A stretch of 64,000 nt of DNA from contig JAHNZQ020000308.1 of the NCBI GenBank assembly GCA_019155205.2, positions 4,281,858 to 4,345,857 of the forward strand. The letters run 5' to 3'. Both the position numbers and the translations under genes were made by a program. Source of the DNA: Gracilaria vermiculophylla. Taxonomy: Eukaryota; Rhodophyta; Florideophyceae; Gracilariales; Gracilariaceae. Of the stretch, positions 54,452-59,054 are shown piece by piece (position 1 is the first letter of the stretch; each line of letters begins with the position of its first letter). The notes under the pieces are model-generated. The model saw only the letters and a list, made by a program, of their open reading frames with translations. It did not search any database and was not told the DNA's origin.

Positions 54452-54836
54452 CTTCAGGGGCTGTGGTTGTTTTCATCGACAAGCTGCAGCGCTCTCCGCG
54501 CCACACGAAGGCAGGTGACGGGAGGAATCAAGTGTGTAATCTGGATGTGTATCCGCATTTACCGATAGGCCCCCCCAAACGTGGTGAATTTGACGTATGC
54601 CATAGGTGTTCAGGGAAGCGCTCGTAGACACGAGCACATCTACACTTCAGCTCGTGAAGTTCCATGTGGATTGCAACTGAGTTGGTGCTCAGTTGATTTC
54701 AGCTCACCCGCGTCATGATGAGGTCCGCGAGGAAATCTTTGAGTACAGTAAATATTTTGATGGCATTTGTTCGATATTTCAGTTTTGAAGTGTAAGTTAA
54801 GAATAATAATAATGCTCCATGCTCTCCTCCGTCAGC
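54452..54836. other. intergenic before the permuted tRNA gene
   Basis: No coding gene. An AT-rich TAAGAATAATAATAATG sequence at about 54798-54814 lies ~35-50 bp before the tRNA gene and could help RNA polymerase III start. Confidence 0.35.
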
Positions 54837-54848
54837 GAAGATGATGTC

Positions 54849-54927
54849 AGCTGAGGTTCCGGGTTCGATTCCCGGCGGGCGTACTCATGAGCGCCTGTAG
54901 TCAAATGGTATGATATCAGCCTTCCAA
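54849..54927 (+). tRNA. circularly permuted tRNA-Gly (anticodon UCC)
   Basis: The 3' half lies upstream of the 5' half. 3' half: GCTGA (54850-54854, anticodon stem 3' strand), GGTT variable loop, CCGGG-TTCGATT-CCCGG T arm (54859-54875), CGGGCGT (54876-54882) and discriminator A (54883). After seven bases (CTCATGA) comes the 5' half: GCGCCTG (54891-54897), TA, D arm GTCA-AATGGTA-TGAT (54900-54914), A, TCAGC (54916-54920) and loop CTTCCAA with anticodon TCC (54923-54925). All stems close: acceptor 7 bp with two G-U pairs, D 4 bp, anticodon 5 bp, T 5 bp. The A-box and B-box are intact but in reversed order. The leader TGAT (54842-54845) pairs with the trailer ATCA (54928-54931), as expected for a relaxed bulge-helix-bulge splice structure. 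Confidence 0.88.
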
Positions 54928-54934
54928 ATCAAAC

Positions 54935-54939
54935 TTTTT
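54935..54939 (+). terminator. RNA polymerase III terminator
   Basis: TTTTT eight bases after the end of the 5' half of the permuted tRNA. Its position after the 5' half, not after the 3' half, supports transcription of the permuted order. Confidence 0.7.
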
Positions 54940-55230
54940 AGATTTGGGGCCCCTGATAAGGGGCAAAGCCAGCAATGCTTCACGCAACAGATTAGGATCT
55001 CCCGCTGTGACATTACGAACAGTCTGCGGGGCGGGTTTTTCCATGTGACGTTCTGCCGTAGGCGACAGCGTATGGACGTGTACAGCGAGTCGAGTGTATA
55101 CACATGCAGCATTACGTTTCGGAGCGTTCGTATGACACGCGACGAGGGCTGCGGGCTGCACTGCCGGGGGCGTTTGAATTTGCGCACTGTAAACGGGCAG
55201 CGGCGATCGAGCGCCACAGCTTGGCGTCGA

Positions 55231-55364
55231 GATGCGTTTGGCGCATGTTGCGTTTGGCGCATGTTGCGTTTGGCGCCAAGTTGCGTTTGGCGCCAAGTTG
55301 CGTTTGGCGCCAAGTTGCGTTTGGCGCCAAGTTGCGTTTGGCGCCAAGTTGCGTTTGGCGCCAC
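55231..55364. repeat. tandem array of palindromic E2F-like sites
   Basis: Eight copies of GCGTTTGGCGC. The first two have a 16-bp period and the following six a 17-bp unit, TTGCGTTTGGCGCCAAG. The core TTGGCGCCAA is a perfect palindrome and contains the E2F/DP consensus TTTSSCGC. The array lies about 0.9 kb upstream of the Argonaute ATG. Long minus-strand frames here translate as a repeated AKRNLAPNATWRQTQ-like peptide and are taken as a by-product of the repeat. Confidence 0.75.
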
Positions 55365-56288: not shown

Positions 56289-59054
56289 ATGTCGTACGGT
56301 GCTCCTCCTCGTGGCGGGTTCCACTCGCGCGGCGATCCTCGTTCCGCCCAGCCGCCTGCCCCTGTTCCGCGTCCAACGCAGGCCGAGGTTCTTCGCGATC
56401 TTCGCAACATTGGTGCCGCCACCAGGGCAGGTCGTTTCGGTAAGGAAGGTCGCCCCGTTGATGTCAAAGTCAACTGCTTCCCTGTTGACATCTCAGCCCT
56501 CACCCCTCTAATCACTCACTACGACCTCGTCTTCGAGGAGATCGAGGACGAGTCTTCCTTCGGCGGTCGTGGCGGACGCGGCGGCCGCGGTCGTGGTAGG
56601 GGTCGCGGCCGTGGTCGTGGCCGAGGCGATCGCTCCGGCTCCCAGCCAGAAAGACTGCTCCCCATCGGTATTGCCACCAAGCTCGTCCGCAGCATCGAAC
56701 GAAATTACGCCTTTGATTTCGGCAACTCCAAGATTGCCCACGATGGCCGCAAGAATGCCTACACCGCCTTCAACCCCAGCTGGGACGGCGGCCGGAAGGA
56801 TTTCCACGCCGAGTGGGAGGGAAAGCGCTACAAGGTCATTTTTACCATCGCCAATCAGGTCAACATGAGTGAGCTTTCCGAGTTCATCAATAAGAATGTC
56901 ACCCTCGTTCCACAAGAAGCCATCACCGTCCTGGATATCGCCCTGCGTACCTGTCCGCTCCGTGAGTGGATATACACCGGCAAGACTTTTGCAGTGCAGC
57001 CGCCGTCTGCAGATGTCCAGAATCGTATCGGCAGCGGGTGTGAGGCTTGGGTGTGTTACTATCAGTGCTTCCGTCCGAAAGAAAATGGCATGTTCCTGTC
57101 TTTTGATGTCAACTACAGTGCGTTTTACACTTCCCAGACCGTGTATGACTATGCTATCGAGATTCTTTCTTCAGAAGCACCATTGCAAACTCCATTAAAC
57201 AGACAGAAGATTGCTCAGCTGGAGAACGAGCTTCGTGGGGTTAAAGTCGAGCAGCTCTATATACAAGAATCAGAGCGTAAGCCTCACGTGGTGAAGAGGC
57301 TCACTCAGCAGCCGGCCTCAGAATTAGAGTTTGAGGGTCAGGCATCTCGTGTATCTGTGGCACAGCACTTTGCGGATCTTGGCAGGCCCTTGGATCATGC
57401 AGATATGCCCTGTATAGACATATCAGCGGGTAAGAGCCACACGTACATTCCGCTGGAACTGGCTCGTATCATTCCAGGACAGCGCCGGCGTGCAACGCTC
57501 ACTCGAGAAATGAAGGAACGCATGGCTCACATGGCGGCCCAGGCCCCCATATCTCGTATGGGTCGAATCGCAGACATCCTCAAAGACGTGAATACTGCCA
57601 CGCAAGAATATTTAAATGCCTTTGGCGTTAAGGTCAACATGAATAAGCTAGCTGTCCGTGCCCGAGTCCTGGATCCCCCAAAGGTTATTCTCGGACAAGA
57701 TATTGCCTTGGACCTTTCTACTAACGGGGAGAACGAGTATTCGTGGAGCATGAAAGATCGACAGGTGTTTCAGACTGGAGAGCCGTTACTCGCGTGGGGT
57801 GTTCTGGTCTTGGCCGACGTCCAAAGGTATGACGTTAAGCAATTTGTCTTCGCCGTAATGCACGTGCTTCGTGGATACGGAATGGATGTGAGAGAGCCGA
57901 GAATCAACTACAGCCACACGCCGATGTTAGTCAAGGATATGATTGCTTTGAAACAAGAGGTTGACAATGACGCCAGCACACCGGGTACTTGCCAATTGAT
58001 GATGGTAATCAAGGAGACCACCGCCACCCGAGATTACAACAAGATTAAGAACGTGAGTGATACTTATCTCGGAATACCGTCTCAGTGCGTTGTCTCGAGT
58101 CAAGTGAGACAACCGACATTGCTGTACTGCCTTAATCTCTGCATGAAGATCAATGCAAAACTTGGGGGTGTCACCGCGCGAATTCCCGGAGACAATTTTG
58201 CGTCCCTCGGTGATCGTTTTCTGGTAGTGGGCGCAACTGTTTCACACCCGTCTCACATGGAACAGCCGGGCGATGCGCCATCCGTTGCATCCATGGTCGG
58301 GAGCCTGGACAAAAGATGTGGGCGATTCGGAGGTGCCATCAAACTGCAAGCGCCAACTGCCGAAGGAATCCAGGAATTCGGCTCGTTGCTCACGTCCATC
58401 CTAACACTCTTCCATTCCCATGAAAAGTTTCTTCCGGAAAATATTCTTATTTATAGAAATGGCGTTGCCGATGGCCAATTTGCTCGAGTATTAAGAGTAG
58501 AGCTCGATGAAGCCCGAAAGGCGGCAATTGAATATGGGCGACATCGAGACATCCCTGATTATAACCCAAAGATTACGTTCATCGTAATGCAGCGTGGGCA
58601 TCACATGCGCTTCTTCCCAACGGATGACGGACCGAAGGATATCTCTAGCAACTGTGTCCCGGGAACTGTGATTGACACTGACGTAACGCATCCACAGCAT
58701 TATGACTTTTATCTGATAAGTCATAATGGTATTCAAGGCACGTCTCGACCCATGCGCTATACTGTATTGAAGGATGAAATCGGGTTTGAACCCGATCAAA
58801 TTCAGGGATTGACGTACCGTCTCTGTTATTTGTTCACTAGATGTTCGCGAAGTGTATCAATGGTTCCAGCAGTGTACTATGCCGACTTACTCGCAGTGAG
58901 GGGCAGAGCCTTTCTGGCAGCTCGGAGTTCTGCACGTCTCGAGCTCATTCCAGGACAGCCTTCGCTTCAAAGCGAGGATCCGCTTCCAGCTGGGTTCTCT
59001 TCAGGTGCGCCTGTGCTCCATTCGGATCTGCAGATGCGTTTCTTCTACGTGTAG
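56289..59054 (+). CDS. AGO: Argonaute, two slicer aspartates replaced
   Basis: The guide-RNA-binding core of RNA silencing complexes, 921 aa, single exon. Order: N domain, PAZ (~260-400), MID (~530-640), PIWI (~640-900), and an intact C-terminus (RFFYV). The MID pocket keeps residues for the guide 5' phosphate: YNKIKNVSDTYLG, SQCV and LCMKINAKLGG. In PIWI, GADVTHP of active enzymes is GATVSHP (Thr650 for the first Asp) and YRDG is YRNG (Asn724 for the second Asp). Glu692 and His812 (SHNGIQGTSRP) remain. Slicing is therefore unlikely; guide-directed repression or scaffold function is expected. Residues 92-113 form an RGG/RG run inside an N-domain loop, where many Argonautes carry it before the N domain. 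Confidence 0.95.
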   Translation: MSYGAPPRGGFHSRGDPRSAQPPAPVPRPTQAEVLRDLRNIGAATRAGRFGKEGRPVDVKVNCFPVDISALTPLITHYDLVFEEIEDESSFGGRGGRGGRGRGRGRGRGRGRGDRSGSQPERLLPIGIATKLVRSIERNYAFDFGNSKIAHDGRKNAYTAFNPSWDGGRKDFHAEWEGKRYKVIFTIANQVNMSELSEFINKNVTLVPQEAITVLDIALRTCPLREWIYTGKTFAVQPPSADVQNRIGSGCEAWVCYYQCFRPKENGMFLSFDVNYSAFYTSQTVYDYAIEILSSEAPLQTPLNRQKIAQLENELRGVKVEQLYIQESERKPHVVKRLTQQPASELEFEGQASRVSVAQHFADLGRPLDHADMPCIDISAGKSHTYIPLELARIIPGQRRRATLTREMKERMAHMAAQAPISRMGRIADILKDVNTATQEYLNAFGVKVNMNKLAVRARVLDPPKVILGQDIALDLSTNGENEYSWSMKDRQVFQTGEPLLAWGVLVLADVQRYDVKQFVFAVMHVLRGYGMDVREPRINYSHTPMLVKDMIALKQEVDNDASTPGTCQLMMVIKETTATRDYNKIKNVSDTYLGIPSQCVVSSQVRQPTLLYCLNLCMKINAKLGGVTARIPGDNFASLGDRFLVVGATVSHPSHMEQPGDAPSVASMVGSLDKRCGRFGGAIKLQAPTAEGIQEFGSLLTSILTLFHSHEKFLPENILIYRNGVADGQFARVLRVELDEARKAAIEYGRHRDIPDYNPKITFIVMQRGHHMRFFPTDDGPKDISSNCVPGTVIDTDVTHPQHYDFYLISHNGIQGTSRPMRYTVLKDEIGFEPDQIQGLTYRLCYLFTRCSRSVSMVPAVYYADLLAVRGRAFLAARSSARLELIPGQPSLQSEDPLPAGFSSGAPVLHSDLQMRFFYV

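Follow-up and report, generated by a model that had tools for sequence, protein, structure and literature searches.

A putative circularly permuted tRNA-Gly(UCC) gene at two nuclear loci of a Gracilaria vermiculophylla assembly

Anatomy of the permuted gene and its second copy

The window, which is the whole 64-kb stretch of DNA that was analyzed, corresponds to bases 4281858-4345857 of contig C14 in a 44.84-Mb assembly of 27 contigs. The two halves of a tRNA-Gly(UCC) lie in swapped order on the same strand at 54850-54927, with the 3' half (54850-54883) preceding the 5' half (54891-54927) and 7 nt between them. A 3' half placed before the 5' half across a linker, which is 7 nt here and 5 nt in a second copy on contig C12, is the arrangement of a type II permuted tRNA gene and not that of an ordinary linear tRNA gene, in which the 5' half comes first. 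The features of the locus are as follows.

54801..54813, + strand: AT-rich, TATA-like upstream stretch GAATAATAATAAT, about -49 to -37 from the 3' half (AT-peak analysis)
54837..54848, + strand: leader GAAGATGATGTC (comparison with the C12 copy)
54843-54846, + strand: leader end GATG, proposed strand of the central helix (3 of 4 pairs with loop bases 32-35)
54847-54848, + strand: TC, part of the proposed 3' bulge (leader comparison with the C12 copy)
54849..54883, + strand: 3' half of tRNA-Gly(UCC), comprising A38, 3' anticodon strand, variable loop, T arm, 3' acceptor strand, and A73 (identical in the C12 copy)
54849, + strand: A38, for which 54927 is the alternative source
54884..54890, + strand: linker CTCATGA (CGTAA in the C12 copy)
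54891..54927, + strand: 5' half of tRNA-Gly(UCC), comprising 5' acceptor strand, D arm, 5' anticodon strand, and loop CTTCCAA (identical in the C12 copy)
54923-54925, + strand: anticodon TCC, within the 5' half
54928..54934, + strand: trailer ATCAAAC (compared in register with the C12 copy)
54935..54939, + strand: TTTTT, RNA polymerase III-type terminator (T-run analysis)

When the halves are put in mature order, they give a canonical 71-nt tRNA-Gly(tcc), in which all four stems were recognized by ARAGORN. The conserved bases U8, A14, A15:U48, G18G19, U33, and U54U55C56 can be read directly in the joined molecule, and a canonical cloverleaf with conserved bases is what the joined halves of a type II permuted gene should yield. 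An earlier note, made from the sequence alone, had proposed this order of halves, their spacing, the anticodon UCC, a complete four-stem cloverleaf, and a TTTTT following the 5' half, and each of these features was recovered at the coordinates given above. The acceptor pair 1-72 is G.U. Both kinds of nuclear tRNA-Gly found in the assembly have U72, as A1-U72 in Gly(GCC) (L177 and L180) and as G1.U72 in Gly(UCC), which may bear on recognition by glycyl-tRNA synthetase.

The gene escapes conventional detection, as the earlier note had anticipated. In the unjoined 64-kb window, ARAGORN and Rfam at gathering scores each reported 0 tRNAs; since both missed the gene here, red algal genomes annotated in that way may seem to be without a tRNA-Gly(UCC). 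The locus was recovered by R1, a covariance model with permuted structure that was built from 21 tRNAs of the same assembly, none of them a glycine tRNA, permuted in silico with variable linkers. Over 67,038 bases and at E values of up to 10, R1 gave two matches, which are the window locus, at 52.8 bits (E of 8.2e-17), and the C12 copy, at 51.5 bits. Plain scaling to the whole assembly gives an E value of ~5e-14, the E values of the covariance tool being rough. The best R1 score elsewhere was 30.9 bits, between two adjoining linear organelle tRNAs, and nuclear T-arm loci scored at most 25.8 bits. These scores confirm that the permuted Gly(UCC) structure is beyond chance.

A DNA search of the whole assembly with the joined 71-mer (E of up to 10) found two loci, the window and C12:1221925-1222002, and both are permuted. 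The exons of the two copies are identical at 71/71 positions, and the linkers differ (CTCATGA, 7 nt, versus CGTAA, 5 nt). In an in-register comparison, 5 of the 6 leader bases that directly precede A38 agree (GATGTC versus GACGTC), as do 3 of the 17 leader bases upstream of GA[T/C]GTC and 2 of the initial 24 trailer bases. In gapped alignments of 100 nt, 247 of 300 shuffles reached the score of the downstream flanks. The upstream flanks aligned weakly better than shuffles, with the score being reached by 6 of 300 at 100 nt and by 3 of 300 at 30 nt. A recent segmental duplication was rejected as the origin of the two copies on these grounds. Because the exons are identical while linkers, leaders, and trailers differ, the pattern fits selection on the product, as judged from sequence comparison, rather than a fresh duplication, and gene conversion could also keep the exons of both copies identical. 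An exact scan across the permuted junction in IMG/VR viral contigs gave 0 matches.

Transcription signals and proposed processing at 37/38

The flanks of the permuted units were compared with those of up to 22 linear nuclear tRNA genes, a few of which have short flanks. Upstream of the 3' half, the AT content over 15 nt peaks at 0.93 in both permuted copies, a value reached by 2.9% of random positions in the window. In the linear nuclear genes, the mean AT content peaks at 0.77 in the -40 to -31 bin, and since a peak as rare as that of the permuted copies occurs in 6 of the 18 with enough flank, the upstream AT-rich element is described here as variable. TTTT occurs within 40 nt downstream of all 22 linear genes and of both permuted copies, compared with 19.6% of random 40-mers in the window. 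After the 5' half it starts at +8 in the window copy and at +24 in the C12 copy, where the terminator is short (TTTT), and neither linker contains a T-run. An upstream TATA-like element, a downstream T-run, and no terminator between the halves are the signals expected around a type II permuted gene. The AT-rich stretch and the T-run enclose the permuted unit and mark it as a probable single unit of transcription, for which the upstream signal is the weaker evidence. Just downstream of the tRNA gene, at 55230-55300 and onward, the window also contains short tandem repeats around GCGTTTGGCGCATGTT and GCGTTTGGCGCCAAGTT.

These observations also bear on whether the locus is a nonfunctional remnant, in which a deletion within a tandem pair of linear tRNA-Gly genes would have spared a 3' piece with a 5' piece behind it. 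Permuted genes could plausibly arise when a tandem duplication loses its outer halves, which by itself gives the observed order, and R1 does weakly score linear tRNAs that stand side by side, at up to 30.9 bits. Such a remnant is nevertheless quite unlikely, as two loci with different flanks keep all 71 exon bases, all stems pair across the permutation at 52.8 bits, and the promoter-like and terminator-like signals lie outside the permuted unit. In addition, each locus in the DNA search of the assembly consisted of a single 3' half and a single 5' half, with the outer halves absent. A working permuted gene accounts for the two loci far better, and its product would have to be joined between positions 37 and 38.

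A splice site for this junction can be proposed from the kept end of the leader. In both copies, the leader end GAYG can face loop bases 32-35 and form 3 of 4 pairs (C-G, U33 mismatched, U-A, and C-G), and a proposed 3-nt bulge at the junction, consisting of T, C, and A38, adjoins the anticodon stem. The outer helix h' has three pairs in the window copy and about one in the C12 copy, and the motif is graded as relaxed for this reason. The leader end and the loop can thus form a predicted splice site at 37/38 of the relaxed bulge-helix-bulge type. Among the permuted tRNAs of green algae and nucleomorphs, those joined at 37/38 as a rule have hBH motifs (PMC3978253); under the review's strict scheme (H = 4), a central helix with 3 of 4 pairs could count as "no H." The same 3-of-4 central helix with a mismatch at 33 recurs at the proposed 37/38 intron of the linear tRNA-Arg(CCG) of the same assembly, and the Ser(CGA) intron is without this pattern. 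The additional leader/trailer pairing suggested in the earlier note (TGAT/ATCA and GAAG/CTTT) is possible in the window copy and is not kept in the C12 copy. The assembly also encodes a tRNA-splicing endonuclease domain, as a type II permuted gene requires (PF01974 at C4:531249-531482, 32.4 bits, above the curated cutoff of 27).

The permuted cloverleaf is not the minimum free energy fold of the longer pre-RNA. Its constrained energy is -37.3 versus -40.3 kcal/mol in the window copy and -36.2 versus -41.3 kcal/mol in the C12 copy, so that free folding favors competing folds by 3.0 and 5.1 kcal/mol, respectively. These competing folds, the imperfect central helix (3 of 4 pairs), and the weak h' of the C12 copy would suit a permuted and expressed gene whose ends are joined without the splicing endonuclease, by exonucleolytic or RNase trimming followed by ligation. 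However, the non-exon bases that are kept between the copies are the very strand of the proposed bulge-helix-bulge, a like geometry appears at the proposed 37/38 intron of tRNA-Arg(CCG), and relaxed hBH motifs are usual at this position (PMC3978253), which makes trimming and ligation very unlikely.

Endonucleolytic splicing of a permuted transcript is the preferred reading, and it would proceed as follows. RNA polymerase III would start from the upstream AT-rich stretch, read through the 3' half, the linker, and the 5' half, and stop in the T-run. The transcript would fold with T arm, acceptor stem, D arm, and anticodon stem in permuted order, and pairing of the leader end GAYG with loop bases 32-35 would create the relaxed bulge-helix-bulge. 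The tRNA-splicing endonuclease would cut off the leader and trailer, and a ligase would join 37 to 38 to give a circular RNA, from which RNase P and tRNase Z would excise the 5- to 7-nt linker before CCA is added. The tRNA-Gly(UCC) is thus probably made usable via an RNA circle that is joined and then cut again, and the mature tRNA would serve GGA and GGG codons. This pathway is proposed by analogy: circular processing is established for the permuted tRNA genes of Cyanidioschyzon merolae and green algae, and circular intermediates of permuted pre-tRNAs have been observed in unicellular algae, both red and green, with the enzymes named as probable (PMC3978253). In light of the sequence features taken together, 54849-54927 is very probably a functional nuclear gene for tRNA-Gly(UCC), circularly permuted (type II) with its junction at 37/38, and one of two such loci.

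Host of the loci and survey for other tRNA genes

The genes neighboring both loci are of red algal type. In the window, an iPGAM is 88% identical to that of Gracilariopsis chorda, and an Argonaute encoded in one open frame at 56289-59054 (ArgoN, PAZ, and Piwi), about 1.35 kb downstream of the permuted tRNA, is 53% identical to Chondrus crispus AGO. A reading frame that starts about 130 nt after the C12 copy encodes a NEDD8-activating E1 subunit with 91% identity to that of Agarophyton chilense and 89% to that of Gracilaria domingensis. These identities place both contigs in a florideophyte close to Gracilariaceae. Together with the gene anatomy and the permuted covariance model, this supports the earlier note's claim of a permuted tRNA-Gly(UCC) in a mesophilic red alga. 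Organelle-type tRNAs occur on C2, C6, C16, C19, C20, and part of C17, and they include plastid-type Gly(UCC) genes of different sequence. C6, C16, C20, and C17:3.02-3.23 Mb are organelle-like, with tRNAs and mitochondrial genes that do not look red algal by gene content. These four contigs or stretches are likely from associated algae, and there is a possible mis-join inside C17.

A conventional nuclear tRNA-Gly(UCC) gene, the check that the earlier note had called for, was not found in the joined-tRNA search described above, in which a gene with these exons, whether linear or interrupted by an intron, would be expected to appear. When up to 3 mismatches were allowed, the D arm matched five places in the assembly, namely, the two permuted copies and three non-tRNAs. 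The 28 linear nuclear tRNA genes seen, with 16 anticodons, include Gly(GCC) in two copies and no Gly(UCC); among them, Arg(CCG) is our own reading of an intron-containing gene that ARAGORN calls Ile. As the RF00005 search of the assembly scored 63 of 1559 candidates, a strongly diverged linear nuclear Gly(UCC) could still be present. Within the searches made, the two permuted loci appear to be the only nuclear source of tRNA-Gly(UCC), and the pair may be the only nuclear reader of GGA. An assembly artifact, in which a mis-join swapped the halves of an ordinary gene, is extremely unlikely: the assembly has other oddities, such as organelle-genome-like contigs of other algae and 100 N within the window, but two loci on separate contigs, which differ in linker and flanks, both show the permuted order, and no linear copy that could have been broken was found.

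The permutation-aware covariance search, of the kind suggested in the earlier note, detected no permuted tRNA (type II) besides the two Gly copies in 166 T-arm loci and 3 D-arm loci, with none above 30.9 bits. This is a partial survey with plain T-arm words, in which a few of the 166 loci overlap and 8 lie on the organelle-like C2. All nuclear places of GGTTCGAATCC, GGTTCGATTCC, GGTTCGAGTCC, and GGTTCAAATCC were covered, as were 40 of the 51 of GGTTCAAGTCC. Coverage was 20 stretches (21 places) plus one Asp gene among the 85 nuclear places of GGTTCAATTCC, only 3 of the 52 nuclear places of GGTTCGARCCC (Lys genes), and 30 loci of the 132 matches (100 listed) of GGGTTCGANTCCC.

Several other tRNA-like elements were observed during the survey. 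A dispersed SINE-like repeat with a tRNA-like head (GTCAC...CTGGGTTCGACTCCCAG...GTGAC) has many nuclear copies (e.g., L063, L073, L089, and L163) and occurs at a 230-bp spacing at C11:1272384-1272855 and C17:2933894-2934136. This repeat explains the 10 nuclear plus-strand GGGTTCGA[C/T]TCCC loci among the matches listed and 13 of the 20 GGTTCAATTCC stretches, and Rfam (E of 0.01) found nothing in 20 of its loci. At L140 (C12:462460-462680, minus strand), a perfect minihelix has a 7-bp acceptor-like stem, GACCGTG/CACGGTC, directly around the T arm, with ACA alone replacing the D and anticodon arms. Introns were proposed by eye in three linear nuclear genes: 11 nt in the D arm of Arg(TCT) (L147, C14:4068620-4068840), 12 nt in the D loop of Asp(GTC) (L117, C14, locus 126-209), and 17 nt in the D arm plus 11 nt at 37/38 of Arg(CCG) (L139, C10:361990-362210). 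ARAGORN still named a tRNA after arbitrary deletions in 200 of 336 cases for Asp and 204 of 336 for Arg(TCT), and 9 of 20 Asp and 14 of 20 Arg(TCT) shuffles were named tRNAs after some deletion. Because this control did not discriminate, the ectopic introns rest on stems read by eye. Atypical D-arm introns have been described in C. merolae (PMC9602550).

Relation to known permuted tRNA genes

The closest known counterpart, compared by its published description, comes from C. merolae, where two permuted tRNA-Gly(CCC) genes have a junction at 37/38 and a 7-bp intervening sequence (PMC3978253, Table 1). Both systems are nuclear, red algal, and glycine specific, with two type II genes that have their junction at 37/38 and specify one and the same mature tRNA, and the window copy also shares the 7-nt spacer. 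A TATA-like element and a T-run, as at both seaweed loci, are found near most C. merolae permuted genes, and the intervening sequences of published permuted tRNA genes range from 1 to 74 bp (PMC3978253). Unlike the C. merolae genes, those of the seaweed have the anticodon UCC, linkers of 7 and 5 nt, and no T-loop intron, and their host is mesophilic and multicellular.

The type II genes of prasinophytes (Ostreococcus and Micromonas) and chlorarachniophyte nucleomorphs share the 37/38 junction and have a relaxed bulge-helix-bulge, such as is predicted for the seaweed loci, and some of them share an AT-rich upstream region (PMC3978253 and PMC4494063). In contrast, those genes specify Ser, Leu, Cys, Arg, Asn, and iMet in green lineages, with no Gly in Table 1 (PMC3978253). 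Auxenochlorella was added in 2025 to the hosts of permuted tRNA genes; its 5' and 3' halves are likewise reversed (PMC12636532), and its permuted genes were also found because the ordinary tRNA set was incomplete, although that host is a green alga and not a red seaweed. Among the matches listed in the open-licence literature, titles and the starts of abstracts mentioned no permuted tRNAs in a florideophyte or other multicellular alga. The seaweed loci thus represent a known kind of gene in a new host, the arrangement having been described mainly from single-celled algae, and permuted tRNA genes in the florideophyte lineage would surprise a specialist.

We tentatively consider, as a possibility that is more doubtful than the gene assignment itself, that a permuted tRNA-Gly(NCC) is an ancient red algal trait that predates the split between Cyanidiophyceae and Florideophyceae and has since then served as the only or principal gene for Gly(UCC/CCC); in that case, large seaweeds would depend on a circular RNA intermediate for an essential tRNA. 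The parallel with C. merolae (Gly, 37/38, a 7-nt spacer, and two copies) makes common descent versus convergence testable in red algal genomes. If the ancient trait is real, then, together with the proposed ectopic D-arm introns, the "highly disrupted tRNA" system known from C. merolae would be one of red algae at large and not of extremophile or minimal genomes. If the pair is the sole nuclear reader of GGA, the seaweed would offer a system with a potentially essential circular pathway. A permuted pair in a seaweed that is both mesophilic and multicellular would uncouple the trait from heat, acid, unicellular life, and very small genomes.
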